From Rhodococcus sp. OK302 (lineage in GTDB: Bacteria > Actinomycetota > Actinomycetes > Mycobacteriales > Mycobacteriaceae), in contig NZ_NPJZ01000001.1 of NCBI RefSeq assembly GCF_002245895.1, forward strand, positions 5,740,501-5,804,500: a DNA stretch of 64,000 nt, read 5' to 3'. A program made the translations under genes and the position numbers. A model generated the notes under the pieces. The model searched no databases. It saw only the letters and a program-made list of their open reading frames with translations, and was not told the origin of the DNA. Each line of letters begins with the position of its first letter. Position 1 is the first letter of the stretch. This document shows, piece after piece, positions 1,233-49,409 of the stretch.

Positions 1233-1257
1233 TCAAACAAACCGATGGTATGTTTGA
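1233..1257. promoter_or_regulatory. 25-bp operator-like inverted repeat (site A), ScbR/ArpA type
   Basis: The arms are TCAAACAAACC and GGTATGTTTGA around the centre GAT. They match as an inverted repeat at 10 of 11 positions. The site lies between the divergent starts at 1173 and 1330, so it could control both directions. It resembles the autoregulatory elements bound by gamma-butyrolactone receptor proteins, and such a TetR protein is encoded at 26351-26992. The repeat is seen directly; the regulator assignment is inference. Confidence 0.75.
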
Positions 1258-1329
1258 CAGCAACATACAGGCAACCTCAATCAGCTAGCTCATCCCGGCT
1301 CAATTCGGGGTCTGCGAGAACGTCAGTTC

Positions 1330-3123
1330 ATGGCCCTGTCCGCACTACACGGAGTGATCCCAATCGAGACTCAACTGGCAACGTGGTTCGGACCGGCAGA
1401 GACACCGCTGCTCGGATTCGTCCATGTACCGCAGTCGGGCACTGCCCGCGAAGCTGTCGTGCTGTGCTCGCCCATCGGCAAGGAACACATCGATACTTAC
1501 CGCGGGATGCGACTCCTGGCGGACGAGCTCGCGGCCCGCGGGATCGTGGCGTTCCGTTTCGACTACGAGTCCGTCGGTGATTCAGCCGGTGCAGAAGATG
1601 CTCCCGACGCAATGCGCCGTTGGCAGGACAGCATTGTCAGTGCCATCGATTATGTAAGAAAGAGCGGTGCGCAGTCCGTGAGTATTGTCGGACTGCGACT
1701 CGGTGCGCTCTTGGCTGCTGCAGCGCTCGCGGAGTGCGGGACTATCAATTCGATCGTCCTTTGGGATCCGATCATCAATGGGCGCAACTACGTCAGGGAA
1801 CAGCGCGCGTTTTACGCAATCAGTGTGGGCAAAGACGATCCTGCCGACCCACGCGTGTCGATCATGGGTGGAACGTTGGCGCCCGAATGTGCCGACGAAC
1901 TCATGACCAGTCGCATCAACGGTCCGTTTCCGGGAAATCCGCGCGCCCTACTCGCCGTCCGGTCATCGATGAAAGACAGCAGTGCAATCACCCGACTGAC
2001 GTCGACGATTCAACCTGACGTTCTGGTTCTGGAGAATCACGAAACCTTCACGTCTCCCCCGAGCTTCTATGTCGATATTCCGTACGGTTACATCCACGAG
2101 ATCGCCGACTGGATCGACAAAAATGCGCCGGAGGATTCCGATGCCTTCGCCCCCATCATCGTGCCCACGGCGCGCGTGGCCGTGACTGCAAGTGGGGAGG
2201 AAGTCTACGAATCACTCGAACGAGTCGGTGCCCATCAACTTTTCGCGATCCGCACACATCCTGCGAGTCCCGCCGCCGAACCTGCTCTTGAAGCTCAGTC
2301 TGCTTCCTTCCCGGAGCCTGGACGTGGGCTGGTGTTCTTCACAACTGCCATCGAGCATCGCATCGGTCCCGGACGTTCTTGGGTGAAGATTGCGCGCGAA
2401 GCCGCTGAGCACTCTGTGACCACTTTGCGGTTCGACCGACGAGGCGTCGGTGACACCGGGCGCATCGATGCAAACAACCCGACGTCGGTATATTCACTTT
2501 CGGCAGACGATGATGCGATGACGGCCGTCGCTGCACTTGGAGCAGCTCCCGAAAACCTGATTCTGGCGGGATTGTGTTCGGGCGGTTGGACTGCCGCGTC
2601 GGTAGCACTGAAGGTGGGTGCTCGGTCAACGATTCTCGTCAACATGATCTTGTGGTCAGTGCGAAGGAAGCGAGCTCTCACAGACGCAGTGCTACCCGAA
2701 TCCCCGAAAATAAGTCCTGAAGGCGACACGATAGAGCTGCCTTTCCGGGCGAGAATCAAGACACTGTTGCAGGCACGACTTCCCTACTTCGCATGGAAGA
2801 TACTGGGCAACAATGGAATAACTCAGGTTCCCGAAGTCATGCTCGACGCACTTTACCGGCGCGGCGTGCACACGAAGGCCATTCTCTCACCCGCCGACGC
2901 GGAGTGGTTCCACCACCAGCGCGGCGCGCAAGGTATCGAACGAATGATGCTCCGTGGCTACACCTTCGACGTTGTCATGCCCAGTATCGGAGACCACCCG
3001 TCTTACCATCGCGACCTGCGAAGCATCATCCATCGTGAGTCGATCTCTGCGATAACAACACAATTCGGCAGTTCGACACGACGATCGATCAGCAGCACTG
3101 ATGCGAAGCGGACAACGGTGTGA
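1330..3123 (+). CDS. Tandem alpha/beta-hydrolase protein of the exopolysaccharide operon
   Basis: A 597-residue protein built from two alpha/beta-hydrolase-like halves. Half one (about 20-265) has the FRFDYESVGDS strand-loop and a nucleophile elbow that reads GLRLG (residues 121-125), with Arg where Ser is expected. Half two (about 330-590) has LRFDRRGVGDTG and an elbow GLCSG (414-418), with Cys in the nucleophile position. Similar hydrolases occur next to exosortase and exopolysaccharide genes, where their substrate is poorly known; acyl or ester modification of the glycolipid is a guess. It is the first gene of a right-facing operon and overlaps the next start by GTGA. Whether either half is catalytic is uncertain. 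Confidence 0.75.
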   Translation: MALSALHGVIPIETQLATWFGPAETPLLGFVHVPQSGTAREAVVLCSPIGKEHIDTYRGMRLLADELAARGIVAFRFDYESVGDSAGAEDAPDAMRRWQDSIVSAIDYVRKSGAQSVSIVGLRLGALLAAAALAECGTINSIVLWDPIINGRNYVREQRAFYAISVGKDDPADPRVSIMGGTLAPECADELMTSRINGPFPGNPRALLAVRSSMKDSSAITRLTSTIQPDVLVLENHETFTSPPSFYVDIPYGYIHEIADWIDKNAPEDSDAFAPIIVPTARVAVTASGEEVYESLERVGAHQLFAIRTHPASPAAEPALEAQSASFPEPGRGLVFFTTAIEHRIGPGRSWVKIAREAAEHSVTTLRFDRRGVGDTGRIDANNPTSVYSLSADDDAMTAVAALGAAPENLILAGLCSGGWTAASVALKVGARSTILVNMILWSVRRKRALTDAVLPESPKISPEGDTIELPFRARIKTLLQARLPYFAWKILGNNGITQVPEVMLDALYRRGVHTKAILSPADAEWFHHQRGAQGIERMMLRGYTFDVVMPSIGDHPSYHRDLRSIIHRESISAITTQFGSSTRRSISSTDAKRTTV

Positions 3124-4523
3124 ACCCCGCGATCTTGCTGCTCGGTGTGATGGCTGCATCCCCGCTTGCAGTTGCCCTCTACAGACGACCACAACGAGGG
3201 CTCCTGCTCCTCGCGCTTCTCGCGCCCCTTCACGGCCTGCTGGCAATCGTCCCGAACGGGCAATCCTTGGCCGGATGGAAAGAGGGCTTGATCCTGCTGA
3301 CCTTGTTGTGCACCTTCGTGAGTCCGAATCGCCAACAGGCCGTACGTCCATCGATGCCCTGGTGGCCGGCAGCAGTCGCCTGGGTGCTCATGGGATCTGT
3401 GTCCGCACTGATCCTTTCCGGATTAGGTGGACTGGTATCGATCAAGATCACATACTTCTACGCGTTGATCCCGGTCATCCTCTGGCGTACGCCCTTCACC
3501 CGAACAGATCGAGACCATCTGGTCACGATCCTCATGGGTATGGGCATCTTCACTGCGGCGATCGGACTACTCCAGCAAATCGTCGGGCCTGCATATCTTG
3601 TCGAACTCGGCTACAGCTACACCGAACAGATCAGAATTACCGGTTCGCTGCTTCGCAGCTTCAGCACGTTCACCGGCCCATTCGCATTTGCACTCTTTGT
3701 CAGTATGAGCCTGATCATCGGTATATCAGTCAGCCTCGCTGATCCAAAACGCTTGCGTAACAAGATCTTCCTAGCCGCAACTCCGCTCATGATCGCAGGG
3801 ATGGGGGTTTCCATCGTGCGTGCCAGTTATATCGCGCTCGCTGTCGGTCTCTTCTACCTGGCGATCTACCGATATCGTTCTCTGCTTGTATTGTTCGCCG
3901 GTATCGCTGCCGCAGTTCCAGTCGCATTGCTGGTCGCACCGGCCTCCGTCGTCAAGCCATTGTTCTCCTCATACAGCCTGTCGGAGCGTGGCAGCGGTTG
4001 GTCGTCGACGATCAGTTCGTTGTTTGTCCATCCGCTTGGCCAGGGACTTGGAGCAACTGGGTCCGCGGCCGCGAAAGCTGCCGAAACCGCCCACCCGATG
4101 CTGAACACGATGACCATCAAAGCAGCAACCACTCTTGGGCTGATTCCATACCAACCCGACAACTACTACATCAAAGTCCTTGTCGAACTGGGTCCAGTCG
4201 GGATGTGGATCTTCGCCCTACTCCTGATCTCCGCAGCACTCACTGCACTCAGAAGCTCTCGAGTGCTCCCCGGACAGGACGGCGCCTTCGCCTTGGGTGT
4301 CAGCGCTTCCATCATCGCCGCAGCCTGTGCGTCGGTGTTCGCTACGTACTTCGAGATTTTCCCTCTCGACTTGTACTTCTGGTTACTGATTGGAACTGTG
4401 GGATGCGCATTGAGCCAACATCACTCCGTACAAGCAACGACGGAGGTTCAGGAATCACCTTCGGCGCGATGGCCCTCCGCCCAGGCGGAGGCGGAGTACA
4501 GACCTACGCTCGCGAAGTCCTGA
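3120..4523 (+). CDS. O-antigen ligase/polymerase-like membrane protein
   Basis: A 467-residue polytopic protein with about ten or more hydrophobic segments and one long external loop (about residues 290-350). This is the layout of Wzy polymerases and O-antigen ligases. It probably polymerises the flipped repeat units on the outer side of the membrane. The GTG start overlaps the TGA of the hydrolase gene (GTGA), and its own 3' end overlaps the following glycosyltransferase by about 120 bases, so the three genes are translationally coupled. Family membership rests on topology and the WaaL-like loop, because Wzy-type sequences are poorly conserved. Polymerase fits the context better than ligase, since a flippase and a chain-length protein are present. 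Confidence 0.8.
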   Translation: MNPAILLLGVMAASPLAVALYRRPQRGLLLLALLAPLHGLLAIVPNGQSLAGWKEGLILLTLLCTFVSPNRQQAVRPSMPWWPAAVAWVLMGSVSALILSGLGGLVSIKITYFYALIPVILWRTPFTRTDRDHLVTILMGMGIFTAAIGLLQQIVGPAYLVELGYSYTEQIRITGSLLRSFSTFTGPFAFALFVSMSLIIGISVSLADPKRLRNKIFLAATPLMIAGMGVSIVRASYIALAVGLFYLAIYRYRSLLVLFAGIAAAVPVALLVAPASVVKPLFSSYSLSERGSGWSSTISSLFVHPLGQGLGATGSAAAKAAETAHPMLNTMTIKAATTLGLIPYQPDNYYIKVLVELGPVGMWIFALLLISAALTALRSSRVLPGQDGAFALGVSASIIAAACASVFATYFEIFPLDLYFWLLIGTVGCALSQHHSVQATTEVQESPSARWPSAQAEAEYRPTLAKS

Positions 4524-5491
4524 AAGAGATTGCCCCGCTGATCAATGGAACGGTAAAGTTGAGTGCCTCGATCCAGAGCGACGCAGTCTCCGAGATTCCG
4601 GCATCGTTGAGTGTCATCCCGCGACCAGTGGTCGCCGGTGCCAGAAGGGCAGCGTGGGCGATGGTGCCGATCCGCGGGTCGGCTTTGTACCACAGTCTCG
4701 ATGTCGATCTCCCGATCAGGCAAGCGGGACTGACTGTTTCGACGTTCCACGATATGGCGGTATTCGATGTTCCCTGGGCATTCAGCAAATTCCGAGCCGC
4801 CGGCGAACGCCAATTACTGTCGATGGCCCTGCGTAAGGCTGATGTGCTCATCGCCGTGTCCGACTTTACCGCCGAGCGAATCAAATCACTGAGCGGCCGC
4901 GAGGCAATCGTCACTCCACTAGCACCTGCACCGTGGGCCACGGTACCAACGCCTACCGAAGTAGCCGAGGTCCGTCACCGCTTGAGCCTACCTGAGCGAT
5001 TTGTACTTCAAGTCGGAACCATCGAACCGCGCAAAGACGTCGCACTGGTTGCAAATGCCTGCTCCGAACTATCAATACCCTTTGTCCTCGCCGGGTCCGG
5101 ATCTCGCGGACCTGACGCACCCAGTTCCGCGATCGGCCTTGGCTACGTTGCGACAGAAGATCTTCCAGCACTATATTCTGCAGCAACTGCTGTTGCGTAC
5201 GCGTCGCACTACGAGGGTTTCGGTCTCCCGCCACTCGAGGCGATGGCATGTGGCAGTGCTGTCGTCGCCAGCGCCGTCGGGGCACTGCCTGATTTTGCGG
5301 ACGACGCCGCAGCCTTAGTCCACACACACGACAAGGATTCATGGGTGCGTGCGCTCCGCTCGGTGATCAACGACTCCGAATACAATGCGGCCCTGCGCAC
5401 CTCAGCGCCTCGAGTTGCATCCCGATTCACTTGGGCACAAACTGCCGAGCTCACTGTCGAGGCATACCGGACTGCCGGGTTGGACGTATGA
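4403..5491 (+). CDS. GT4-type glycosyltransferase
   Basis: A glycosyltransferase of about 362 residues. GITFGAMALRPGGGGVQTY near the N-terminus is the first beta strand and glycine-rich acceptor loop. LQVGTIEPRKD and YEGFGLPPLEAMACG are the donor-site and E-x7-E motifs of family GT4. The frame stays open far upstream, but that part is only the polymerase gene read in another frame. I chose the ATG at 4403 because it precedes the first strand by a short leader; the ATG at 4469 would cut that strand. The long overlap with the polymerase gene is therefore real and unusual in size. It should extend the lipid-linked oligosaccharide. Confidence 0.85.
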   Translation: MRIEPTSLRTSNDGGSGITFGAMALRPGGGGVQTYAREVLKEIAPLINGTVKLSASIQSDAVSEIPASLSVIPRPVVAGARRAAWAMVPIRGSALYHSLDVDLPIRQAGLTVSTFHDMAVFDVPWAFSKFRAAGERQLLSMALRKADVLIAVSDFTAERIKSLSGREAIVTPLAPAPWATVPTPTEVAEVRHRLSLPERFVLQVGTIEPRKDVALVANACSELSIPFVLAGSGSRGPDAPSSAIGLGYVATEDLPALYSAATAVAYASHYEGFGLPPLEAMACGSAVVASAVGALPDFADDAAALVHTHDKDSWVRALRSVINDSEYNAALRTSAPRVASRFTWAQTAELTVEAYRTAGLDV

Positions 5492-5501
5492 GTTGGGCTT
5501 T

Positions 5502-7091
5502 ATGACAGACCGCCGATCCTCCGATACCGACCATGTGTCACCTCGTAAATTCGCCGAACTGAAGCATGCTGCGCAACTGAAGTTCGAGAAGGAACGCCTC
5601 GAACGAGAAACCAAGATTCACCAACCGTTAACACCTGAGTTGACGGCAAACGCGGCCCGTCGTAGCACGGCGATCATGTTGGGAAGTAGAGTCGCCGTCG
5701 CCGCAATGGGCTGGACCGGTTCCGTTTTGATCGCTCGCGCAATCAGCCCCGAGCAATTCGGTCAGTTCTCATTGATCTTCGGTCTGCTCGGATTGCTTTC
5801 CGTCATCACTGATCTCGGCGTCGGACGAGTTGTACTTGCAAAACTGGTCGAGAGCAATCCTTGGGAAATCTCGCTGGTTACAACCGCATTCATCTCGCTA
5901 CGCATCGCTTTGGGACTGCTCGGATACGTCTTGGCTGTCGGATACGTCTGGATAATGGGATACCCCGCAGAAGTCATCGAAGCGACTGCGATTGCAGGCC
6001 TCGTCGTCGTTGTCGCGACACCAAGTCACGCGCTTTCGGTGATGTACCAGAGTCGTCTCAAGATGACCTATGTGGCAGTTGCCGAAGGCGCCGGACAACT
6101 TGCGCAGCTGATGGCGACAATCGCAGCTGTACTGTGGCAACCCCTCCTCATCATCCTCGTGATTCCAGCAGTAATCAACGAAGTGGTCGCTGCCGTCATC
6201 AAGATCCGCGGTGTTCGCAAGGGTGTCGCCGGCCCGCTCCCCGCCTCGCGCGCCCAGTTTCGACGGTGGCGAGAAATGCTGATCGAAGCGATCCCACTCA
6301 GCATCGGATTCGCTTTCATCACATTGCTTTCCAAAATCGACGTCCTCATGCTCGGCAAACTCGACACGTTCGATTCTGTCGGGTTGTACAGCATCGGATA
6401 CAAGTTCGCGGATCTTCTACAGATCGTCGCCATCACCGTCGTCACCCCCGTAACCACACTCCTCGTCTCCTCATGGCCTGACAAACTCGATATCTTTCGG
6501 GAGCGCAGTCGTGAAGCGTTCATCGTCCTTGCCATTCTCGGAAGCGCGTCCATCGCGGCGTTCTGGCCGGCGGCAACCGAAGTCCTGTCACTGCTGTACG
6601 GCGAAAGATTCACTGTTGCAGGAACTTCCACACGACTCCTCGTCTTGGGTGCCTGCTTTTCGATGCTAACTCAACTCGGCCTGATGGTGCTGATAGCCAG
6701 TGGACGGCATCGCACGTACCCCTGGGTGGCGCTGGCCGGACTCGGTTTCAATATCGTTGCCAACCTTGTCCTCATCCCTCGCTTCTCGTTCAACGGCGCC
6801 GCAATTGCAACAGTTGTCACCGAAATGCTTCTGTTCATTGCGATTTGGATCGTCGTAGTTCGAACAGTTCCTGCCCACAACCTGTTTCCTGCTATCCCTG
6901 TCGTCGCGACGACAGCGATCGGCGTACTGGTCACGACGGTGGGGACCATCTGCGTCGAACGATTTTCCATTCCGTGGCTTCTCGTGTCGATCGCCGCACC
7001 TGTCGTAATCGCGGCAATCTTCGTAGTCGTTCCGATCTCCAACGGGAAAACCCTGTTGGCGCTCATCAAACCCGGTGGAGACAACACATGA
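5502..7091 (+). CDS. Polysaccharide flippase (MOP/Wzx-like)
   Basis: A protein of about 529 residues with roughly 12-14 membrane segments of the MATE/MOP polysaccharide-export type. A hydrophilic, charged N-terminal extension of about 50 residues (with KFEKERLERETK) precedes the first helix. It is expected to move undecaprenyl-linked repeat units across the membrane for the polymerase at 3120-4523. It starts 10 bases after the stop of the glycosyltransferase, and its stop overlaps the next start (ATGA). The extension is longer than in most flippases and could be a contact site for cytoplasmic enzymes; that is speculation. Confidence 0.87.
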   Translation: MTDRRSSDTDHVSPRKFAELKHAAQLKFEKERLERETKIHQPLTPELTANAARRSTAIMLGSRVAVAAMGWTGSVLIARAISPEQFGQFSLIFGLLGLLSVITDLGVGRVVLAKLVESNPWEISLVTTAFISLRIALGLLGYVLAVGYVWIMGYPAEVIEATAIAGLVVVVATPSHALSVMYQSRLKMTYVAVAEGAGQLAQLMATIAAVLWQPLLIILVIPAVINEVVAAVIKIRGVRKGVAGPLPASRAQFRRWREMLIEAIPLSIGFAFITLLSKIDVLMLGKLDTFDSVGLYSIGYKFADLLQIVAITVVTPVTTLLVSSWPDKLDIFRERSREAFIVLAILGSASIAAFWPAATEVLSLLYGERFTVAGTSTRLLVLGACFSMLTQLGLMVLIASGRHRTYPWVALAGLGFNIVANLVLIPRFSFNGAAIATVVTEMLLFIAIWIVVVRTVPAHNLFPAIPVVATTAIGVLVTTVGTICVERFSIPWLLVSIAAPVVIAAIFVVVPISNGKTLLALIKPGGDNT

Positions 7092-8170
7092 TTCGAACAC
7101 TGATCTTCGTCAGTCACACCGGAGAGGTTTCCGGAGCCGAACTCGTCATGATTCAGGCGATGCAACTCGCGAAAGAAAGCGGGGCCACCGTAATTTTGGT
7201 ATGCCCGGACGGCCCGCTGACTCAGCGAGTCACTGACATCTGCGAAGTTCTCCCAATACCGAGCCTCGCGCTCAAGGGGGAAGGTGGCATCAATCGCATT
7301 CTCGCTATCGCTACCGTGGTGAAGAACTGGCGAATCGCAGGACGCATGATCGCGTCCCGTACGCGATCCGAGAATGCAAAAGTGATCGTCAATTCCCTGT
7401 TTGCATTGCCGGCAATCAGATTCGGCCGGGTCGATGGCGGCGCAACTTGGCTCATTCACGACACGCTCTCCAACACCAAACAACGCACTGTCGTCCGCAT
7501 TGCCAAGCCTTCCATCCGACGAGCAGTTTCCGTCTCCGGGCCCACAGCAATACCTGTACGCGCGCTAGGCATCCCCACTACGATCGCGCGACTCGGTGTT
7601 GCGGTACCCGACGAAATCGCGGTAGTTCAATCCCCCGCGCCCGGGGTTGTCGGCATAATCGGATCTATCACTCCGTGGAAGGGCCACACCGTCCTGTTGG
7701 AGGCAATTGCCAGAACGCCTGACGTATTACTCGAAATTGCCGGTGTCCCATTTCCCGGAGACGAGCCGTATGCCGAAGTGTTAAAACAACGTTCCGAAGA
7801 ACCCGATTTGAGGGGCCGTGTCCGGTTCCTTGGATACGTCGATTCACTGTCCACCGTCAGAAACTGGGACCTCGCTATCTCAGCCAGCACCTCTCCTGAG
7901 GCCAGTCCGCTGGTAGTTCTCGAAGCCATGAGCCTCGGAGTGCCCGTCATCGGAACCGACCATGGGGGAACGAGCGAGCTACTCGCGGACGGTGCGGGTT
8001 CCCTCATCGCAGTTGATGACCCCGCCCAACTAGCTGCAGAAATCGCCAGACTGTTGAACGACGAATGCGCGCGATCTACATTTGCGCGCGCTGGTCGAAA
8101 AAGAGTGGTTGAGCGCTATGACATCCGAAAGAACCTACCGGCGCTCCTCGAGGAACTCGTTCGTGACTAA
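7088..8170 (+). CDS. GT4-type glycosyltransferase
   Basis: A 360-residue glycosyltransferase. FVSHTGEVSGAELV is the glycine-rich acceptor loop of GT4 enzymes, GIIGSITPWKGH the start of the donor domain, and SPEASPLVVLEAMSLG the E-x7-E region. The ATG overlaps the flippase stop (ATGA). The frame remains open upstream, but that stretch is flippase sequence in another frame. It is the second right-facing transferase of the operon and, with those at 37 and 4403, gives at least three sugar-adding enzymes besides the initiating transferase. This suggests a repeat unit of about four or more sugars, unless some genes lie outside the window. Confidence 0.86.
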   Translation: MIRTLIFVSHTGEVSGAELVMIQAMQLAKESGATVILVCPDGPLTQRVTDICEVLPIPSLALKGEGGINRILAIATVVKNWRIAGRMIASRTRSENAKVIVNSLFALPAIRFGRVDGGATWLIHDTLSNTKQRTVVRIAKPSIRRAVSVSGPTAIPVRALGIPTTIARLGVAVPDEIAVVQSPAPGVVGIIGSITPWKGHTVLLEAIARTPDVLLEIAGVPFPGDEPYAEVLKQRSEEPDLRGRVRFLGYVDSLSTVRNWDLAISASTSPEASPLVVLEAMSLGVPVIGTDHGGTSELLADGAGSLIAVDDPAQLAAEIARLLNDECARSTFARAGRKRVVERYDIRKNLPALLEELVRD

Positions 8171-9248
8171 AGCGCTTCGCCTATCAGCAGCCGCAGTGGT
8201 TCTCGTTGTCCTCGGAGTTGTCGTTCAGTCGTCGGTCTCCGAATCGAGTAAGCCATGCGAACCAGCTCCGTCCACCGACAGCACCGGCATAGCCCTCGGT
8301 TCTGGTTACACTGCACTAGGTCAGCCTGAAATAGACAAGGTCATCGAGGATATTCAGGACTCGGGTTCCGATTGGATCAGATTCGACTTCGACTGGTCAT
8401 TTATCGAATCCACACAGGGAACGTTCGATTGGTCAGGAACTGACCGACTCGTCGAGGCCGCGAAGGCCAGCGGACTCCATGTGCTCGGCTTGATCACCTA
8501 TACACCGGAATGGGCTCGCGCCGCGTCGGATTCGGAAGCGGATAGTCACACTCGCCCTGCTGACCCCACAACATTTGGTGACTTCGCAGGTATTGCTGCA
8601 GAACGCTACATCGACGCGGTATCTGCCTGGGAGATCTGGAACGAACCTAATCTCCAGTCGTTCTTCAACCCTGCGCCAGACGTAGGGTATTACTCGGAGA
8701 TGCTGACAGCTGCGAGCGCCTCGATCAAAAAGGTTCAGCCCGATGCGACGATCGTGTCCGGTGGCCTGTCCCCCGCAACGGACAACGGTACGGATATCAG
8801 CCCCACGACCTTTCTGTCCGATCTGTACGACACTGGAGCTGGCCCCTATTTCGACATCGTAGGTATGCATCCGTACAGCTTTCCCGCACTACCGTCCGAT
8901 GCCCTCACCCAGAGTTGGAACTCGTTTTACCGAATGCGCTTCATGCACGACACCATGGTGACTAACGGCGACACAGCCAAGTCAATCTGGGCAACGGAAT
9001 TCGGTTCGCCAACCGGCAGCAGTCCAGAAGCTGTCACAGAGGCCGTTCAAGCTGAAATTCTCCGCGACGGAATCAACGAGGCCCGCAGGCTCGGATTCGT
9101 CTCCAAGTTGTTCGTTTACAGCCTCCAGGACCTTGGATCCGATTTAGGGGATCGCGAACAGAACTTCGGACTTCTGGACACAAACTCCGATCCGAAGCCT
9201 GCAATGACCGTCCTGGAAAATGCCAACAAAACTGGAGGGTGCTTCTGA
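8163..9248 (+). CDS. Secreted PslG-like glycoside hydrolase, copy 1
   Basis: A 361-residue exported TIM-barrel glycosidase of the GH5/GH39-like clan A type. It starts at GTG 8163, seven bases after GAGGAA, and overlaps the previous stop; an in-frame ATG at 8118 is the alternative. The first 25 residues form a signal peptide or membrane anchor (KALRLSAAAVVLVVLGVV). WEIWNEPN places the acid/base at Glu161 and WATEFG the nucleophile at Glu279. The shape recalls PslG, the endoglycosidase of the Pseudomonas Psl operon, so it may trim or release the polymer made by this locus. A paralogue follows at 9478. Confidence 0.82.
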   Translation: MTKALRLSAAAVVLVVLGVVVQSSVSESSKPCEPAPSTDSTGIALGSGYTALGQPEIDKVIEDIQDSGSDWIRFDFDWSFIESTQGTFDWSGTDRLVEAAKASGLHVLGLITYTPEWARAASDSEADSHTRPADPTTFGDFAGIAAERYIDAVSAWEIWNEPNLQSFFNPAPDVGYYSEMLTAASASIKKVQPDATIVSGGLSPATDNGTDISPTTFLSDLYDTGAGPYFDIVGMHPYSFPALPSDALTQSWNSFYRMRFMHDTMVTNGDTAKSIWATEFGSPTGSSPEAVTEAVQAEILRDGINEARRLGFVSKLFVYSLQDLGSDLGDREQNFGLLDTNSDPKPAMTVLENANKTGGCF

Positions 9249-9477
9249 AAAGATTCGCCAACTTCATCCCCATTCAGAAAAAATCGGACAATACCAACCG
9301 ACGCATTCCAATCGCCTTCACAAGCAAGCACAGGTGCTGAAGAACCGACCTCGAGACTGCTCCCCACAGACCGAATTCGTGCAATTCTACTTATTGCCGG
9401 ATTCGTCAGCGATATCCGGATCCATCCTCTTATTGTGGCCCCTGTTTCGCGACCCCTGTGGAAAGAAGGTGGTCGAC

Positions 9478-10566
9478 GTGCGTCGACTTCGATTCCTCCT
9501 GTGTTCCCTGACCCTTGCCGTCGGATCGTTGAGTGCCTGCACCTCCACTCCCCCTCCACCTCCAACAACTTCCCCACCATCGACTTGCAGTTCTGCCAGT
9601 TTCGGCATCGCTGGCGGCGCCCCCTTGAACTGGCTCTCGCAAAACGACCTTGATGCAGAGTTGACCGCAATGAAGAATGCGGGCACCACATGGCTCCGAT
9701 TCGATATCGACTGGTCGGCAGTCGAACCAACCAAGGGCCAACAGAATTGGTCAGCAACCGATCGTGTCGTCGAACGGGCAAGGCTACAAGGCTTGAGCCT
9801 TCTTGCCATCGTCACCTACACACCTCCGTGGGCACGCATTGCCGGAGCCGCCGACAGTCACGGCTACCCATCCGACATTGCAGCGTATGCCAAGTTCGCA
9901 CAGCAAGCGGCACAACGCTATTCGAACAAGATCAGCACCTGGGAGATCTGGAATGAACCGAATCTCGCTCAATTCTTCCGCCCGAAGCCCAATGCCAATA
10001 CTTACACGTCAATGCTGAAGGCCGCAGCGGCAAGCATTCGAGCCGCACAACCTGGTGCAAAGATTCTCAACGGCGGATTGGCGCCGGCAGTCGACAACGG
10101 TTCCGACATCTCACCGGTCACGTATCTCAACTCCCTCTACGCTGCCGGGGCGAAATCGTCCTTCGATGCCTTCTCCATACACCCCTACAGTTGGCCCGCG
10201 TTGCCCTCCGACGCGTCCACTCAAAGCTGGAACACCTTCTACCGAATTCGCCTCATGCGAGAGACGATGGTCAAGAATGGTGACAGCGGAAAGAAGGTCT
10301 GGGCAACCGAATTCGGCGCTCCCACCGGAACTGGACCGACCGCTGTCAGCCCCCAACTTCAAGCCAGTATCATCGCCGACGGATTCGCACAGGCCAATTC
10401 ACTCGGGTACATCGAGCGAATTTTCATCTACAGCATGCGTGATCGCGGAACCAACACCAGTGACATCGAGCAGAACTTCGGACTGATGACAATGAACTTC
10501 ACTCCGAAACCCGCACTGGACGCTGTGAAGCAAGCGATCGGTGGGTGCACTACACCCAAAATTTGA
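9478..10566 (+). CDS. Lipoprotein PslG-like glycoside hydrolase, copy 2
   Basis: A 362-residue paralogue of the preceding gene, with the same order of motifs: FDIDWS, WEIWNEPN (Glu160), HPYSWPALPSD and WATEFG (Glu278). The start is GTG 9478, preceded by AAGGTGG; the in-frame region further upstream looks non-coding. The N-terminus is a lipoprotein signal with lipobox LSAC (Cys21), followed by a proline/threonine linker, so this copy should be tethered to the membrane while copy 1 uses a different signal. The two copies look like a tandem duplication with divided location. A 229-base gap separates them. The substrate is presumably the exopolysaccharide of this locus. Confidence 0.82.
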   Translation: MRRLRFLLCSLTLAVGSLSACTSTPPPPPTTSPPSTCSSASFGIAGGAPLNWLSQNDLDAELTAMKNAGTTWLRFDIDWSAVEPTKGQQNWSATDRVVERARLQGLSLLAIVTYTPPWARIAGAADSHGYPSDIAAYAKFAQQAAQRYSNKISTWEIWNEPNLAQFFRPKPNANTYTSMLKAAAASIRAAQPGAKILNGGLAPAVDNGSDISPVTYLNSLYAAGAKSSFDAFSIHPYSWPALPSDASTQSWNTFYRIRLMRETMVKNGDSGKKVWATEFGAPTGTGPTAVSPQLQASIIADGFAQANSLGYIERIFIYSMRDRGTNTSDIEQNFGLMTMNFTPKPALDAVKQAIGGCTTPKI

Positions 10567-10583: not shown

Positions 10584-12287
10584 TCAGTCCACCTTGGACG
10601 TACCCCGGGTTCCTTCATGCCTCAGTAGTCCCACGCGTGAAACTGGCCGACCATCTCGAGTCTTGCCTTTTTTACTGGTGTTCAACATAATTCGCTCGGT
10701 AGCCGCTTCGGAGTTGATATCGTCGACGTGATTAACGACATCAACTCCGTCGAGGTCACCAGCATCGACTGCTCGTGGGCTTTCCACCGGAGACGGATGC
10801 TTCTCAGGCTCCAGCGCCGACAACCGTCGACGGTCGATCGTCACAGTCTGCGCATCGATCAACCCCGCTCGTGTTCTACGGTCACCGGAATCAACCACTG
10901 GTCCGGACGCCACCTTCGCACTACTTGATGGAGCTCCCATGACTCCGTTCACATCTTCCGTGACTCCACGCAAATGCAGTGACGTGTCTTCCCGCAACAT
11001 CGGCTCTCCCACTACTGCAGCCGAACTCACCGGTTTCGTATCACCACTCCGACCCCGTAGCGAGGACAATGTGATGAAGTCGATGACAGGTTCGGGCGCT
11101 GCCGGTCCGACCAACACCAACGACCGCGCCACATCAACTTCCGCCAAAGTCCGAAGACAACTGGCGATTTCACTTTGATCAGCATCTTGTGCCGAAACGA
11201 CAACAATCGCAAACGCTGTGCCGCTGGAATCGACGACGCTCCACCAGTTCGAGCTCAATGCATGGACGGATACACGCGCCTGCAAGCCTTCCGGCACGTC
11301 CCACGAGTTCATGTCTACGCCCTCCCCGACCAATACGAGAACGTGATCTCCCAGGCTCGTGCGTTGACTCAACGTGAGCGCGACATTAGACGGCATCTCG
11401 GCGACAGAAGAGTGTTGTACGAGCAGTGACGCGCCGAATTTCTTCGCGGTACGACGGGCCCAGGCATCAGTGACGCGAGAACTGAAACGTCCGCGACATA
11501 CCACGAGAATCTCTGCCACCAGAATCAGGACGACCAGGAAGGCCACCGCAGATTCGACAAACGGCTTGGGGGCAACAGGAAGTCCCGTCCCTGACGGCGC
11601 CGACAGCAATTGCAACCTGTCAGAATTTGACTCTGCAGCGCGCAGTTGCCTCAATTGCTCGAGCCTGGCATCAAGATCCGCTGCGACTGTCGGATCATCC
11701 TTGGCTGTTTCGTAGTTGTCGATACTCTTTTGGCGCGCCGCCGCCAACTGTGAGTTGAGCCGCGCGATGTCGTCGGTCAGTATCTTGGTCCGTCGATCGA
11801 GAGTTTCGGCATTGCGTTGCCCCTGAGCATCACTCAATGTCTCCACGACGACGCGCGCAAGCTTGTCGGACTCGTCCTGACTGAATCCTGTCGCCTTCAC
11901 GAAGACCAGCGCGGGTGAAGTTCCAGGGGCCACCGCTATGTGACTCGAAACGTCAGCGCCGGCCCACCCGTTGCCCATCTTCCGCTCAATTTCGGCAACT
12001 ACAGCGCTATCTGTCGATAGCGCTATGTATGGCGCGACCATCTGGCCCAGGTTGGCATCGGTAACCACAACCTGCGCACCGGTCTGGACTTCCGCGACGA
12101 TATCGGATTCGTACACCGGCGTCGCACTTCCTCTGACCATGTACACGAAGCCACCGACAATCAATGCGATCACCAGCGCAGGAAGGACCACTCGCGACAA
12201 ATTTCGCACGTGGCCAACCAAGTCGAATGTTGGCGGCACGCCCAGCTCTCTACGAATCACTGCGTCCCTAGTCCGCACATCTGACAC
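10584..12287 (-). CDS. Wzz-like polysaccharide co-polymerase (chain-length protein)
   Basis: A 567-residue membrane protein. A cytoplasmic leader is followed by a first helix at about 32-52 (VVLPALVIALIVGGFVYMV), an extracytoplasmic Wzz domain, a heptad-like stretch at about 160-215, and a second helix near 240-258. The cytoplasmic C-terminal 300 residues contain no Walker A motif, so the tyrosine-kinase half found in many such proteins is absent or degenerate. It should set polymer length together with the polymerase. The GTG start has GGAGG eight bases before it. Two operator-like repeats lie 40-95 bases upstream. It faces the right-facing operon tail to tail with only 17 bases between stops. 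Confidence 0.82.
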   Translation of the reverse strand: MSDVRTRDAVIRRELGVPPTFDLVGHVRNLSRVVLPALVIALIVGGFVYMVRGSATPVYESDIVAEVQTGAQVVVTDANLGQMVAPYIALSTDSAVVAEIERKMGNGWAGADVSSHIAVAPGTSPALVFVKATGFSQDESDKLARVVVETLSDAQGQRNAETLDRRTKILTDDIARLNSQLAAARQKSIDNYETAKDDPTVAADLDARLEQLRQLRAAESNSDRLQLLSAPSGTGLPVAPKPFVESAVAFLVVLILVAEILVVCRGRFSSRVTDAWARRTAKKFGASLLVQHSSVAEMPSNVALTLSQRTSLGDHVLVLVGEGVDMNSWDVPEGLQARVSVHALSSNWWSVVDSSGTAFAIVVVSAQDADQSEIASCLRTLAEVDVARSLVLVGPAAPEPVIDFITLSSLRGRSGDTKPVSSAAVVGEPMLREDTSLHLRGVTEDVNGVMGAPSSSAKVASGPVVDSGDRRTRAGLIDAQTVTIDRRRLSALEPEKHPSPVESPRAVDAGDLDGVDVVNHVDDINSEAATERIMLNTSKKGKTRDGRPVSRVGLLRHEGTRGTSKVD

Positions 12288-12326: not shown

Positions 12327-12351
12327 CAAAAGAAACCAGCAGTTTGCTAGA
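12327..12351. promoter_or_regulatory. Operator-like repeat (site D1) upstream of the wzz-like gene
   Basis: The arms are CAAAAGAAACC and AGTTTGCTAGA around AGC. They match the arm consensus from sites A-C at 16 of 22 positions. The centre is about 52 bases upstream of the GTG at 12287, a normal promoter position. It is weaker than sites A-C and is supported mainly by position and by its exact 30-bp spacing from D2. Confidence 0.5.
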
Positions 12352-12356
12352 TCTCT

Positions 12357-12381
12357 ATAAACATACCCGAAGTCTGCTAAT
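12357..12381. promoter_or_regulatory. Operator-like half-site (site D2) upstream of the wzz-like gene
   Basis: The left arm ATAAACATACC matches the consensus at 9 of 11 positions, while the right arm AGTCTGCTAAT matches poorly (5 of 11). The centre is 30 bp from the centre of D1, the same distance seen between sites E1 and E2 at 49.4 kb. Confidence 0.4.
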
Positions 12382-13252: not shown

Positions 13253-14734
13253 TCAGTAGGCTCCATCACTGCGAACCACAGCGGACACCGTACGCGCGAT
13301 GATCGAAAGATCCTGTGCCGCTGACCAGTTCTCGACGTACGAGGAATCCAGACGAACCGATTCTTCCCACGAGAGATCACTACGGCCGCTGACCTGCCAG
13401 AGTCCGGTGATACCGGGTTTCACGAACAACCGGCGAGACACCTCGTCGTCGTACATCTCGACTTCGCGCCGAAGTGGCGGACGCGGACCGACGACACTCA
13501 TTTCACCGCGAATGACGTTGAAGAACTGCGGAAGTTCGTCGATGCTCAACCGGCGGAGAATCTTGCCGATCGGTGTGATGCGCGGATCTTCGCGCATCTT
13601 GAAGAGCACACCGCCCGCACCCTCGTTGTCGCCCATCAGATCGACGACCTGTTGATCTGCACCGGCGACCATCGTACGAAACTTGTACATGGGAAACGGT
13701 TTCCCGTTCAATCCGATGCGCTCCGCCTTGTAGAAAACAGAGCCTTTCGATGTGACCTTGACTGCGACTGCCGCCGCAATCATGACGGGCGCAACCAGCA
13801 GGATCATCAAGACCGCGAACAGAGTGTCGAAAATTGCCGGTGCCCAACGGTTTGCGCCTTCGTAGCGTGGACGCTCGACGTGAATGAGCGGCAGCCCGGC
13901 TACGGGCCTAAACATCAGTCGGGCCTTGGATACATCCGCAATGACCGGCGAAACAACAAGATCGACACCTTCTGCTTCCAGATCCCACATCAGTTTGCGG
14001 ATTCCGACCTGGCCAAGATCTTCGGTGCCGGTCACGATGACCGTGTCGGCATTGCATGCCCGCATGGCCTCGATCACTTCAAATTCATTGCCCAACACCG
14101 GAACATGAGCACCGTCGACCATTATGTGGTCGTCGAGCACCGTGGCGCGACGCGGAATGCAGGTGCCCACGACGTCATATCCTGCCGATGCCGCTCGTAC
14201 GAAGGACCGCGTAGTGGCAACAACGGAAGCATGCCCACCGACCAGCAGAACTGCGTTCCGGCATTGCCCGGACGCTCGCTTGTTACGAATATCTCGACGC
14301 CAGAGGTACCGGCCGAGAAGCAAGGCACCCAAGCCGAGTGGCAGAGCGATCATGAGGTAGCTTCGAGCAATTTCGACGCCGAGAACGATCCCGGCCAGTG
14401 CGCCGAGTCCGAATACTTGACCGGTTGCCAACAGAACACGCTCGTATTCGTCGCCGCCGTCTCCCAACATCGATTGATGGCGACTACGACCACGCGAAAG
14501 CGTGATCATCCACAGCACACCGAGCAAAACGGATGCAACAACCTTGAGCGGAGTCAACCACTCGAAAGGATGGGGCCAAACACTGCCGAACTGCGCGAGC
14601 GCAATCACAAGAATTACGGTGACGGAGTCGGTGATCGCAATTCTGCGCCGATACGCACGCCGCCAGTCCCGACTCAGATCAGCCGAATTCCGCAGTGCCG
14701 TCGGCTGGATCCCCACCTCAGCATGAACGCTCAT
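13253..14734 (-). CDS. Undecaprenyl-phosphate sugar-1-phosphate transferase (initiating enzyme)
   Basis: A 493-residue polyprenyl glycosylphosphotransferase of the WbaP/CpsE type. It has four N-terminal membrane helices (about 30-145), a Rossmann-like CoA-binding-like domain (about 150-280), another helix near 310, and the catalytic bacterial sugar transferase domain to the end. Conserved catalytic-domain motifs visible are GLNGKPFPMYKFRTMV, LPQFFNVIRGEMSVVGPRPP and FVKPGITGLWQVSGR. It should start each repeat unit by placing a hexose phosphate on the lipid carrier. The ATG at 14734 has only a weak ribosome site. An operator-like repeat (site B) lies about 250 bases upstream, so a long leader or unseen promoter is likely. 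Confidence 0.9.
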   Translation of the reverse strand: MSVHAEVGIQPTALRNSADLSRDWRRAYRRRIAITDSVTVILVIALAQFGSVWPHPFEWLTPLKVVASVLLGVLWMITLSRGRSRHQSMLGDGGDEYERVLLATGQVFGLGALAGIVLGVEIARSYLMIALPLGLGALLLGRYLWRRDIRNKRASGQCRNAVLLVGGHASVVATTRSFVRAASAGYDVVGTCIPRRATVLDDHIMVDGAHVPVLGNEFEVIEAMRACNADTVIVTGTEDLGQVGIRKLMWDLEAEGVDLVVSPVIADVSKARLMFRPVAGLPLIHVERPRYEGANRWAPAIFDTLFAVLMILLVAPVMIAAAVAVKVTSKGSVFYKAERIGLNGKPFPMYKFRTMVAGADQQVVDLMGDNEGAGGVLFKMREDPRITPIGKILRRLSIDELPQFFNVIRGEMSVVGPRPPLRREVEMYDDEVSRRLFVKPGITGLWQVSGRSDLSWEESVRLDSSYVENWSAAQDLSIIARTVSAVVRSDGAY

Positions 14735-15078
14735 TGGTCATCAGTCTTTCTTGTCATCGATTGGTGTCGCGGGTTGAGTCGCGGGCCGTATCGGGCCTTT
14801 TTCCAGAAATCGCTGATCATTAACCAACTGTGGGATCCAGGAACGGCAACACCCCGCCGGTTGCCGTGCCTGGCGTCGACTGACGCTAATAAAATTCCCC
14901 CACCAACCCCTTCGTCAAACTGCTGACCAGGGGCCAATTCCTGCATAATCCGACCGCATTGCGCTCTTCCCGTACGCAAACATACCTCAGGTTTGTTTGC
15001 AGTGCACTCGAGAGCGTCGAGCTACCGAGAGATTGCCAACTAATTACCAGGAATCACGGACGTACCGCGCAAAGCCTG
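14735..15078. other. 344-base intergenic region holding operator site B
   Basis: No convincing gene is present; one short left-facing frame has no recognisable protein features. The region carries the operator-like repeat at 14976-15000 and presumably the promoter of the sugar transferase gene. A short CTCGA/TCGAG hairpin at 15006-15020 could mark the end of the mazG transcript. Confidence 0.6.
14976..15000. promoter_or_regulatory. 25-bp operator-like inverted repeat (site B)
   Basis: The arms are GCAAACATACC and GGTTTGTTTGC around TCA. They match as an inverted repeat at 10 of 11 positions and have the same length and centre size as site A. It lies between mazG and the left-facing initiating transferase gene. 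Because mazG points the same way, the transferase gene is the obvious target. Confidence 0.75.
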
Positions 15079-19661: not shown

Positions 19662-22214
19662 CTATCTACGCGGAACCCGCTTCGGTGTCGACACTCGAGG
19701 AGGATCGGCCACCGTCGGCGGCGCGACCGCCACGCTGGCATGTGAGTTGAGCGCCCTCACCCGACCGATCACCATCTTCGCTTGACCGACGCGGCGCAAC
19801 CTCACTGTCCGCGAGCCTCCGGGTGCCAGATGGAACCAGGAATCCTCCGGATCGAATCCTTGCAGGTCCAGCGAAACGTACTGCGCCGTGCCTTCGGACG
19901 TAACGTCGACGACCCACTCCTCTTCGCCGACCGAGCGTGCAATTGCCGAGAGTCCCAACGAGCGTTCCAAAGGCCTGGCGACGCTCCCCAACAGGTGCAC
20001 CACCTCGTCGAGCACCATGCCCTCGGAATTTTCGAGGGTGACCGTGACGGCATCATAATTGGCCGGGCCGAACTTGAAAACATGAGTGAGATCGGTGAAT
20101 CGTCCCACGACGGTGTCGACGGACAGGCTCTGGCTTCCGTGAGCCTCGATCCTGACCGCGGCGACGGCATTCACCGGCACGATCCCGGACCGGCTGTGCG
20201 CCCGGATGCGGATTTCGCCGACGACCGGTTGCGCAGTCTCGTTCAGGACATCGAGACGAAGCCCATCCATTCCGTCGTCCGTGACGATGAGAGCCAGTGG
20301 TTTCGAGTAGCGCCGAAGCACGTACCACGGCGCTTTGGGGGTGCCCTGCCAATCGAGGACTCCCCATCCCGGCCCCGGTTCAAGATCCATCAGTGCCAGG
20401 GTGAGGGCTCCGTCGCATCCGGAATCTGCTCGACGCCAATGGCCGAGGACTGCGCCGAACGCTTCACAGATCGCTGCCCGGCCCAGGTCGAGATACCGTT
20501 CGGGATCGGACCAGCGCACCTCGCTCGGATCCTCTCCGAACAGCGTCTTGACGTAATGATCGCGAACATCTTCGAAATCCCACGACGAACCGTTGTCGCG
20601 CGGAACCGCCGCTTTCCACGCCGGATGGTGCCCCGCTGCCGAAACAGAACCGAATGCGGATTCGATCACGTTGTTGGAAGGCGGAATCGCAAATGCCAGG
20701 CACTCTGCCGCAAATCGCACTCGCGCGCGCGTCACGTCGTCGAGCGGACGACGGTATGCACCCACTCCGAAGTAGTGCGCGATACCGCTACCGACGTGGG
20801 TAACCAACTCTTCTCGCTCGGGCGGAGCGGACGGCGACGACGTCACGTATTCGACGTGGGGTGCGAGATCTGCAATCAACGACGGCAACTGAGAGTGAAT
20901 GATCGAGATCTTCTGATCGACCAAACCGAGCATGGCCGGTTGCTGCTCGGTTTCGCTTCCACCACAGAAGACCACGAGGGCCGGATTACCGCCGACGCGC
21001 CGGAGAAACGTACGTATCTCAGCTGAGAACAGCGCAAAGAACTCTGCAGTGTCCGGCGGATCGAGCGTCGCGAGCATCGCATCCTGCCAGACGAGAATAC
21101 CCAGCCGCGCGCACTCGTTCCAGAAATGATCGCTCTCGTACACCATGGTTCCCGGAACCCGAAGCATGTTCACGCCGGCGCCGGCGCACCGTTCGAGCAC
21201 CTGAGTTGTCAAGGTCTCGGACTGGAAGGAGATCGGATCGGTAGGCACCCACAGCGAGCCCCGGCAGTACACGTCAATATCGTTGACCGACAGGCGAAAT
21301 CCGCCCGCCGTTCGATCAACCTCGAGGCTGCGAAAACCGACGTTCCCCAGCTCGAACACCTTTCCGCCGACCTCGATCGACACCGGGTACCGGTGCGGGA
21401 CGCCATGCGTGTGCGGCCACCAGAGATCCACGTCGGGAATCTCGACGACACCCGTGACGTCGGACAGTCCGTCTCTGCCAGGTTTGACGGCGAGCGACCC
21501 ACGTACCGCACCGACAACGACCGCGACAGCCACGACACCGCTCGGCAAACCCGAGAGCCGTGCGGTGATCTCGACCTGACCTGCATCGTCATTGACGCTG
21601 GCCTCCAACACCCGCGAAACAACACCAACCTTGTGGGTATCAAGCAATCGGACGCCTCGCCACGGCCCCACCGGAACCGGAACTCCGGAAAACACCGCCG
21701 CCCGCCCCAGCATGGTCGTACGAATCCACCTCAACCCTTGCTCGCGGACCAAAGCCGAACGCCACCGGCCGCGTGGTCGACGGGAACTCAATACCGCTGC
21801 CATCGAATGAAAGTGGATGGCGATCGTGATCTCACGCCCGCTCGTCGTATCACGAGTCACGATCGCTTCACCGGGAACGAACATCGATTCCGACGAGATG
21901 GTCAACGTGTTGTCTACCCAGACATCAGCAAAAGCTGTCAGCCCGTCGAAGTGGAGCAGCCACGACCCCTCACCGGTCGTGGCCACCCGAGTAACGAACC
22001 ACCAGTCCATGGTGTCGAGCGACTTGATATCAATGGGCCCGGGCCCATCCACATCGCGAATCGCCCCCGCCACGGTTCCCGGTACCGTCGCCCGGTGCCA
22101 CTCCCCGGCGATCGCGGCCAGCTCAGCCGGATTCGAAACCACCCCGGGATCTGTTGCGATACAACGCCAATCTGCTCCGTCAAGCAAATCTGCTCGAGAG
22201 TAGCGTGCCATCAC
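19662..22214 (-). CDS. GH2 beta-mannosidase-like glycoside hydrolase
   Basis: An 850-residue intracellular (no signal peptide) hydrolase with the GH2 layout: N-terminal sugar-binding jelly roll (about 30-190), immunoglobulin-like domain, then a TIM barrel from about 300. FCGGSETEQ puts the likely acid/base at Glu421, in place of the usual GNNE motif, and RFAAECLAF near 500-508 contains the candidate nucleophile Glu504. WDAM-type strand LVWQDAM supports a beta-mannosidase-like barrel. It is the last gene of the carrier-protein operon and starts by GTGA overlap. A glycosidase in such an operon suggests that the product, or its acceptor, is a glycoside. The unusual acid/base surroundings leave activity to be shown. 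Confidence 0.82.
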   Translation of the reverse strand: MMARYSRADLLDGADWRCIATDPGVVSNPAELAAIAGEWHRATVPGTVAGAIRDVDGPGPIDIKSLDTMDWWFVTRVATTGEGSWLLHFDGLTAFADVWVDNTLTISSESMFVPGEAIVTRDTTSGREITIAIHFHSMAAVLSSRRPRGRWRSALVREQGLRWIRTTMLGRAAVFSGVPVPVGPWRGVRLLDTHKVGVVSRVLEASVNDDAGQVEITARLSGLPSGVVAVAVVVGAVRGSLAVKPGRDGLSDVTGVVEIPDVDLWWPHTHGVPHRYPVSIEVGGKVFELGNVGFRSLEVDRTAGGFRLSVNDIDVYCRGSLWVPTDPISFQSETLTTQVLERCAGAGVNMLRVPGTMVYESDHFWNECARLGILVWQDAMLATLDPPDTAEFFALFSAEIRTFLRRVGGNPALVVFCGGSETEQQPAMLGLVDQKISIIHSQLPSLIADLAPHVEYVTSSPSAPPEREELVTHVGSGIAHYFGVGAYRRPLDDVTRARVRFAAECLAFAIPPSNNVIESAFGSVSAAGHHPAWKAAVPRDNGSSWDFEDVRDHYVKTLFGEDPSEVRWSDPERYLDLGRAAICEAFGAVLGHWRRADSGCDGALTLALMDLEPGPGWGVLDWQGTPKAPWYVLRRYSKPLALIVTDDGMDGLRLDVLNETAQPVVGEIRIRAHSRSGIVPVNAVAAVRIEAHGSQSLSVDTVVGRFTDLTHVFKFGPANYDAVTVTLENSEGMVLDEVVHLLGSVARPLERSLGLSAIARSVGEEEWVVDVTSEGTAQYVSLDLQGFDPEDSWFHLAPGGSRTVRLRRVGQAKMVIGRVRALNSHASVAVAPPTVADPPRVSTPKRVPRR

Positions 22215-44508: not shown

Positions 44509-44549
44509 TTTGCGCGTCGTATCCTCGAGCCCGTAAAGGACAGCATCCG

Positions 44550-49329: not shown

Positions 49330-49354
49330 CTCCGCCCACCGAGGGAGTGCGACC

Positions 49355-49379
49355 CGAAACCAACTCCTGGTATGTTTGC
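49355..49379. promoter_or_regulatory. Operator-like repeat (site E1)
   Basis: The right arm GGTATGTTTGC matches the consensus at 10 of 11 positions and is identical to site A except for the last base. The left arm CGAAACCAACT matches at 7 of 11. It lies 50-74 bases upstream of the start at 49429. Confidence 0.55.
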
Positions 49380-49384
49380 CAGCA

Positions 49385-49409
49385 CTATGCAAACCGACGG
49401 TCTGTTTAC
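49385..49409. promoter_or_regulatory. Operator-like repeat (site E2)
   Basis: The arms CTATGCAAACC and GGTCTGTTTAC around GAC match the consensus at 15 of 22 positions. The centre is exactly 30 bp from that of E1. It ends seven bases before the ribosome site of the gene at 49429. Confidence 0.45.

Follow-up and report, generated by a model that had tools for sequence, protein, structure and literature searches.

An operator family marks a predicted extracellular-matrix regulon in Rhodococcus sp. OK302, with an ScbR-family protein as candidate regulator

Introduction

The role best known for receptors of the gamma-butyrolactone (GBL) type is to switch antibiotic clusters in Streptomyces. Here we analyze a 64,000-nucleotide stretch of the genome of Rhodococcus sp. 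OK302 (contig NZ_NPJZ01000001.1; referred to as the window), in which seven 25-bp palindromes precede exopolysaccharide (EPS), carrier-protein and other genes, and in which a TetR protein of the ScbR family is encoded beside one of them. As judged from the sequence, these operators form a highly specific family that marks a regulon of the extracellular matrix.

The operators described for such receptors, in the accessible parts of PMC7480387 and PMC5744401, are 18 bp long and have the form AAAC-N10-GTTT. For ScbR of S. coelicolor, the available portion of PMC4595836 gives the motif MSGYTTSTTD and, at sco6268, the site AACAAACC-N8-GGTTTTCA. Binding as a dimer-of-dimers complex is reported for CprB (PMC4150764, available part). 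Within the genus, R. jostii RHA1 produces a GBL-like molecule by way of gblA (PMC5735094). This is the one paper we met that demonstrates such a molecule in Rhodococcus, and its accessible main text uses no word that starts with biofilm or polysaccharide. In the accessible literature on rhodococcal butyrolactone receptors, autoregulators, biofilm and exopolysaccharide, as judged from the titles and abstract openings listed, we met no regulon of the kind considered here, nor is one described in the available parts of PMC4748050, PMC8416521 and PMC11617531.

Results

A rare operator family concentrated in the window

The sites consist of 11-nt arms around a 3-nt centre (Table 1; positions are those of the window). 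The three strong palindromes, operators A, B and C, had been reported in a first-pass annotation of this DNA, and its coordinates and arm counts were exact, with 20 to 22 of 22 arm positions matching the consensus TCAAACAWACC. At up to 3 mismatches the consensus matched the window three times, compared with no match in 100 dinucleotide shuffles. The genome comprises 6,790,176 bases in two contigs, of which the window makes up less than 1%. A 23-bp form of the site occurred four times genome-wide at up to 3 mismatches, each time inside the window, and the reversed pattern, which served as control in the pattern searches, did not occur. The core AAACAWACNNNNNGTWTGTTT was found at five genomic sites with at most 1 mismatch (control 0) and at seven with at most 2 (control 2). 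A site with 2 mismatches at C1:1745080 was taken as a chance match, as the reading frame around it encodes, by eye, an acyl-CoA dehydrogenase-like protein.

All seven window sites are located outside called genes, in the ~8% of the window that is non-coding. The first-pass annotation held that its proposal would fall if matches struck coding DNA as often as these promoters; as far as pattern searches of the genome go, the regulon is not refuted on this count.

A matrix was trained on 13 clade sequences, all of them from A (3), B (6) or C (4). Its top seven hits in the window, scoring 36.2 to 14.4, are the seven sites of the first-pass annotation, and the next hit scores 7.1. In 40 shuffles, the mean number of hits scoring at least 14 was 0.175 and the highest single score was 21.9. 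The four weaker sites hold ranks 4 to 7. They had been called not significant on their own, which is correct for each taken singly but not for the four jointly, since they rank directly after the strong sites and are conserved where aligned.

Operator cores are conserved amid diverged flanks

We compared ten erythropolis-clade Rhodococcus genomes, including the source genome (G000). At up to 1 mismatch, these contained 43 forward sites versus 1 for the reversed control. By position and sequence, 42 of the 43 were assigned to EPS, transferase, carrier-protein, gene 49429, bldC or SipW promoters, with a partial gene-by-gene check. The cores of B and C were mismatch-free in all ten genomes. G017 keeps operator B despite unrelated flanks and a different downstream gene (GT2). 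Operator D1 was present at up to 1 mismatch in eight genomes and at 2 mismatches in G007 (G010 was outside the 2-mismatch search); D2 was conserved in G003, G014 and G017. In a three-genome alignment of this promoter, D1 and D2 were both retained throughout. The core of A was found in four genomes (G000, G003, G007 and G010); the site is degenerate in G016, and with 1 mismatch allowed neither G017 nor G025 has one of this type. For the wzz-like promoter pair, five genomes were aligned. All five retain the right half GTTTGCT of site 12327, and at site 12357 the element AAACATACC-N-GAAGT is invariant while the right half is not conserved. Judged from these alignments, in which the operator core is conserved and the flanks have diverged, the sites qualify as phylogenetic footprints within the erythropolis clade.

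Sites were also found where the EPS locus itself has been exchanged. In G009 and G014 the first gene of the exchanged locus encodes a dual hydrolase 36-37% identical to that of the window, and a site lies ~115-215 bp before the aligned start. In the exchanged locus of G021, the region between divergent genes holds two sites, one with 1 mismatch and one with 2; on one side are GT4, GDP-mannose dehydratase and epimerase genes, and the other side has no Pfam match. The first site overlaps the called GT4 gene start by a few bases.

A further G007 site, at C1:607936, falls outside the assigned target groups. G007 (C2:1132412) and G017 (C1:5108394) share sites before a formyltransferase/crotonase fusion gene (domains checked in G017), for which G000 showed no counterpart at 2 mismatches.

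Targets outside the window include bldC and a SipW-type operon

Two of the seven proposed target units lie outside the window. The fifth genomic site (G000:C1:2463765; L140 3264-3288) starts 71 bp ahead of what is probably the start codon of a gene of the BldC family (NF033787, 103.5 bits versus a cut-off of 77). All ten clade genomes have this site, 71-126 bp upstream and with 0-2 mismatches; the bldC promoter is well conserved overall, so this footprint is less telling. Nine non-clade bldC promoters contained no site at up to 4 mismatches.

The second unit has a site (G000:C1:211774; L227 4775) ~480 bp upstream of a gene for a TIGR04089 exported protein, with 2 mismatches in G000 and 1 in G003 and G021. 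In G000, a half-site CGGTTTGTTTGC is located ~50 bp further upstream. The G021 operon encodes an Ig-like adhesin-type protein, the TIGR04089 protein, a signal peptidase (TIGR02228) and a SipW-cognate protein. Genes for relatives of the exported protein in G017, G025 and G009 have matrix hits (21.6, 14.7 and 23.1, respectively) ~427 bp ahead of them, and six of the ten clade genomes have a SipW-type operon with the site. Eight of 12 exported-protein loci gave no matrix hit of at least 10: in G003 and G021 the site is just beyond the flank covered, and the other six, including further G000 and G021 copies, have no site in that flank.

Given the sites before EPS, surface, bldC and SipW genes, the regulon appears to be one of the extracellular matrix. 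The earlier proposal of a single regulon over the exopolysaccharide and carrier-protein genes is thereby strongly supported, by specificity and conservation; its extent was right for the window genes and too narrow beyond them, where bldC, the SipW operon and, in relatives, GGDEF-EAL genes are to be added.

Sites in other lineages

A stricter pattern, AAACATACYNNNRGTWTGTTT, was searched in 301 genomes of the family and found in 12 (control 0), namely the ten clade genomes, G100 and G174. In G174, which belongs to another genus, the sole exact site stands 6.9 kb from a homologue of the window regulator (62% identity) and ~13 bp ahead of the start called for a GT2 gene; after this come a gene that matched no Pfam family and another GT2 gene. 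In G100, where the homologue is 6.7 kb away, the exact site has a methyltransferase-like gene on one side and, on the other, a short cluster that begins with a GyrI-like gene and includes a GGDEF-type protein, a call that rests on resemblance to Pfam-confirmed proteins of G131.

We then counted sites at up to 1 mismatch in 46 non-clade genomes (14 + 14 + 18). Eleven have a site, and in eight of these it lies within 60 kb of a regulator homologue (6.7-57 kb). In the remaining three, the G012 site is 432 kb from the homologue, the G077 sites are on other contigs, and G089 has no homologue at 1e-45. The G089 site, ~300 bp upstream of a gene best matching RF3 (33%), was taken as chance. In G257 and G077, a gene for an initiating glycosyltransferase 40-43% identical to that of the window (start codons uncertain) has a 1-mismatch site next to it; in G257 a GGDEF-EAL gene is found just upstream. 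In G018, G005 and G015, a site lies ~90 bp upstream of the gene for a large GGDEF-type protein, with GGDEF and EAL domains Pfam-confirmed for G018 only.

GGDEF-EAL-adjoining operators in other rhodococci (L142 8672, L121 1501, L147 4937 and L187 9628) point to a possible link from a lactone receptor to cyclic di-GMP (c-di-GMP). A second 1-mismatch site of G077 (L185 10117) is located ~200 bp before a very large open reading frame (>3000 aa, nonribosomal peptide synthetase-like by eye).

The matrix was also run over 80 loci carrying a regulator homologue (1.54 Mb), drawn from 305 found, in Rhodococcus, Nocardia, Millisia and Antrihabitans. Of nine hits scoring at least 14, six are site C and one is the G100 site. 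A Millisia hit (20.7) lies ~20 bp upstream of a homologue of gene 49429. A hit of 15.4 in Antrihabitans (L095), ~45 bp upstream of the ATG of the regulator homologue, was discarded, as such scores are expected by chance in 1.54 Mb. In other genera, a de novo search for palindromes ahead of the homologue's gene returned other repeats, with CACCC-N7-GGGTG in 18 sequences (mainly Nocardia by eye). The operator may have diverged in these genera. Nocardia homologue promoters (L068, L105) contain other repeats, for example CACCCA...TGGGTG in L105.

An ScbR-family protein is encoded beside operator C

The claim that an ScbR-like TetR protein is encoded beside site C was borne out by the family model (Table 1), and this protein, near whose homologue sites lie in other lineages too, is the most probable binder on sequence grounds. 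Its nearest solved structures are CprB and AvaR1, with which it shares an identical recognition helix, VTKGALYFHF. W135 is invariant in 10 aligned proteins and aligns with the CprB tryptophan; a conserved tryptophan is important in the ligand pocket of such receptors. By rules of thumb only, both the acidic isoelectric point (5.3-5.5) and this tryptophan are in keeping with a receptor that binds a ligand. Clade orthologues, among others in R. erythropolis, R. qingshengii and R. globerulus, are 89-100% identical, which places the source genome in the erythropolis clade.

Across the 80 loci, a FasR-like gene neighbours the regulator in 79 and mfd in 75; of the five loci without mfd, four stop at a contig end and the fifth is that of R. 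globerulus. By this conserved neighbourhood, the regulator is an old core gene. In the clade (six of the 80 loci), a six-gene cassette (AcpS-like, carrier protein, acyl-CoA dehydrogenase-like, ligase, DUF1839 and GH2-like) is located between regulator and mfd. In R. globerulus the cassette and operator C are 113 kb away from the regulator; the two travel together, so operator C is part of the cassette rather than of the regulator gene's 3' end. A short palindrome, ACAAAT-GCG-ATTTGT, is found upstream of the regulator (27095-27110, minus strand) and is loosely kept in relatives, perhaps as a weak or different operator.

The first-pass annotation had advised looking for an AfsA-type synthase elsewhere in the genome. 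A single AfsA-type gene was found (G000:C2:109459-110280, two AfsA domains), on contig 2 and beside another receptor, 33% identical to that of the window; the window regulator gene does not adjoin it. This gene pair (G000:C2:109459-110998) lacks window-type operators. At up to 3 mismatches, no window-type site was found in the gbl locus or in the ~3.5-kb loci of the other receptors. Diffusible-signal control of the regulon, a weaker point of the earlier proposal in view of this gene's location and of the four ScbR-family proteins in the genome, is plausible as a hypothesis.

Operator geometry

The sites are not standard ScbR/ArpA elements. Their arms resemble the ScbR motif, exactly in 2 of 14 arms, and the spacer differs. 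The window sites read AACAAACC-N3-GGTTTGTT, with 3 bp between the arms versus 8 in the ScbR operator, and are not canonical Streptomyces autoregulatory elements (AREs). The canonical ARE AAACCG-N6-CGGTTT had one match in the window at 2 mismatches (5464), which was rejected as it lies inside a gene, and an 18-bp search of the gbl locus and the other receptors' loci produced nothing convincing. Each strong site holds four AWAC/GTWT units, of which the outer-left/inner-right pair, AAAC-N9-GTWT, is 1 bp from ARE spacing. Two overlapping dimers, as with CprB, would explain the long near-perfect dyad.

Other features of the proposed target genes

Table 1. Candidate operators and associated genes in the window
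Feature	Position	Strand	Location or evidence
Glycosyltransferase, divergent from operator A	37..1194	-	Glycos_transf_1
Operator A	1233..1257		Between divergent glycosyltransferase and EPS operon, 38 and 72 bp ahead of them, respectively; 22/22 arm positions
Dual alpha/beta hydrolase, first EPS-operon gene	1330..3123	+	Abhydrolase_6/Hydrolase_4
Rest of EPS operon: O-antigen-ligase-like (below Pfam cut-off), two glycosyltransferases, flippase, two glycoside hydrolases	3120..10566	+	Pfam
wzz-like chain-length protein	10584..12287	-	Architecture only: two membrane segments around a coiled region, by eye
Weak operator, first of wzz-like promoter pair	12327..12351		Matrix score 14.4, rank 7
Weak operator, second of wzz-like promoter pair	12357..12381		Matrix score 17.2, rank 6
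Polyprenyl glycosylphosphotransferase (initiating enzyme)	13253..14734	-	TIGR03025, 403.7 bits vs cut-off 295.55
Operator B	14976..15000		~240 bp ahead of initiating transferase gene; 20/22 arm positions
Glycoside hydrolase family 2-like	19662..22214	-	PF22666
DUF1839 protein	22211..23200	-	PF08893, E 3e-100
Amino acid:[carrier protein] ligase homologue	23197..24144	-	PDB 4h2w, E 7e-68; 3mey, E 2e-65
Acyl-CoA dehydrogenase-like	24141..25331	-	PF02771/PF00441
Acyl/peptidyl carrier protein	25328..25579	-	PF00550
AcpS-type phosphopantetheinyl transferase	25719..26030	-	PF01648
Operator C	26215..26239		~185 bp ahead of AcpS-like/carrier-protein operon, downstream of regulator gene; 20/22 arm positions
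ScbR-family TetR regulator, candidate binder	26351..26992	-	NF041196, 162.5 bits vs cut-off 150
Operator D1	49355..49379		Upstream of gene 49429; matrix score 24.3, rank 4
Operator D2	49385..49409		30 bp from D1; matrix score 17.5, rank 5
Conserved protein, Asn/Gly/Ser-rich N-terminus (low complexity), double operator	49429..50025	+	

The hydrolase that opens the EPS operon scores below the cut-offs of the exosortase-associated hydrolases (TIGR03101/TIGR03100), and the wzz-like protein matched no Pfam or NCBIfam family. The frame of the AcpS-type gene is broken near a G run in the window, with PF01648 matching the first part, by sequencing error or real loss; the gene is intact in all 13 loci from nine other clade genomes. 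The predicted ligase aligns with solved ligases over the catalytic domain (residues 25-315, E 7e-68). DUF1839 is a family of papain-like fold (PMC10318531, accessible part); the accessible literature on DUF1839 and amino acid:[carrier protein] ligases, judged by title or abstract opening, yielded no description of such an operon. The gene 49429 protein has no Pfam match and 23 database homologues, those with an organism name coming from Rhodococcus or 'Nocardia globerula'; a homologue in Millisia is 45% identical.

Discussion

What can be read from the DNA itself is the set of operators, how specific they are genome-wide, how they are conserved and which genes they precede. On this basis, the seven palindromes are probably the operators of one matrix regulon, bound most likely by the 26351-26992 protein, which would repress until released by a ligand. 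The identity of the binder, repression, ligand and decoration are what we infer beyond this. A ligand-free dimer would sit in the promoters and repress; at each strong site, two dimers may share the four AWAC/GTWT units. Release by a small ligand would jointly switch on the EPS operon, the initiating transferase, the chain-length protein and gene 49429. The same release would turn on the carrier-protein pathway, which may load and process an amino acid and would probably decorate the polymer, as well as, outside the window, bldC and the SipW-type exported-protein operon.

Several observations weigh against this model. Receptors of the ScbR type usually autoregulate, and no operator was found in the regulator's own promoter (best matrix score 1.5). 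Four proteins of the genome pass NF041196, three of them in addition to the window protein, and the bldC and SipW sites are far from all four. The spacing AAAC-N13-GTTT is 5 bp off that of known receptor operators. Since 5 bp is half a helical turn, a single dimer in the usual geometry would hardly engage both half-sites. The dyad AWAC-N10-GTWT (AAACVGNNBVNNCSGTTT) occurs in none of the seven sites and nowhere in the window, and the ScbR motif is exact in only 2 of 14 arms (CGGTTTGTTT in A and AGGTTTGTTT in B). At A, B and C, no sigma-70 promoter of the consensus type was seen. Outside the clade, 35 of the 46 genomes have no site at up to 1 mismatch, and ten siteless genomes, all from one 14-genome set, each carry a homologue at least 49% identical. 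Linkage between site and homologue can also mirror synteny of the EPS region.

Several regulators might share the sites, a GBL receptor competing with one or more pseudo-receptors as in the case of AvaR1 and AvaR2, whose sites overlap (PMC5744401, available part). The presence of several ScbR-family members in the genome agrees with such competition, which overlaps with our preferred model; however, only one of them is encoded near the window's sites in this genome, and we consider the arrangement a minority possibility. Slightly less probable still is that the same regulon has another binder, either one of the three other ScbR-family proteins (e.g. that beside the AfsA gene) or an unrelated TetR protein. 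The four NF041196 proteins, the siteless promoter of the neighbouring regulator and a spacing unlike that of known ScbR operators would all be accommodated. The absence of sites from the gbl locus and the other receptors' loci argues against it, as does the position of the sole exact site of G100 and of G174, ~7 kb from a homologue of the window regulator.

The near-perfect inverted repeats could in principle be RNA hairpins, terminators or a mobile repeat, but this is very improbable considering the AT-rich arms, the lack of a T-tract terminator at A, B or C, the position of all window sites upstream of genes, and base-level conservation amid diverged flanks without spread over the genome. 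Conservation by descent only, without common function, could draw on the close relatedness of the clade and the well-conserved bldC promoter, but is hardly credible for sites that precede non-orthologous EPS loci in three genomes (G009, G014 and G021), that stand before another gene in G017, and that recur in other genera beside transferase genes.

Returning to the 26351-26992 protein as binder, a broader proposal can be made tentatively, at somewhat below even confidence: that an orphan, mfd-linked GBL-type receptor is a master switch of the rhodococcal matrix. In the erythropolis clade it might govern polysaccharide, aminoacyl-carrier decoration, SipW proteins and BldC, and in other lineages c-di-GMP enzymes and the initiating transferase, through ARE half-sites moved half a helical turn closer and bound by two overlapping dimers. 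If true, this would be a quorum-type control of the matrix in actinobacteria that joins lactone and c-di-GMP signalling. The concrete set of operators makes the role of GBL-type signalling in Rhodococcus directly testable and provides an entry point to biofilm and EPS formation in rhodococci used in industry.

Compared with the amino acid:[carrier protein] ligases (PDB 3mey, 4h2w), the window encodes a strong homologue, likewise beside a carrier protein, but here grouped with an acyl-CoA dehydrogenase, a DUF1839 protein and a GH2-like protein under a shared matrix operator. The SipW-dependent exported proteins (TIGR04089) and BldC (NF033787) are ordinary members of their families, above the cut-offs; what differs is their placement under the same operator as EPS genes. 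R. jostii RHA1, of the same genus, has an AfsA and receptor system, gblA/gblR/gblE, with a demonstrated GBL-like molecule (PMC5735094, accessible part). There, GblR is encoded beside gblA, whereas the receptor of the window is separate and mfd-linked. With the Streptomyces receptors ScbR, ArpA and CprB, the window protein shares the family model, the recognition helix (CprB, AvaR1) and the tryptophan; the operator arms resemble the ScbR motif, with exact agreement in one arm each of A and B. It differs from them in the spacer, in having neither a site at its own gene nor an adjoining AfsA gene, and in its probable targets, which are matrix genes rather than antibiotic clusters.

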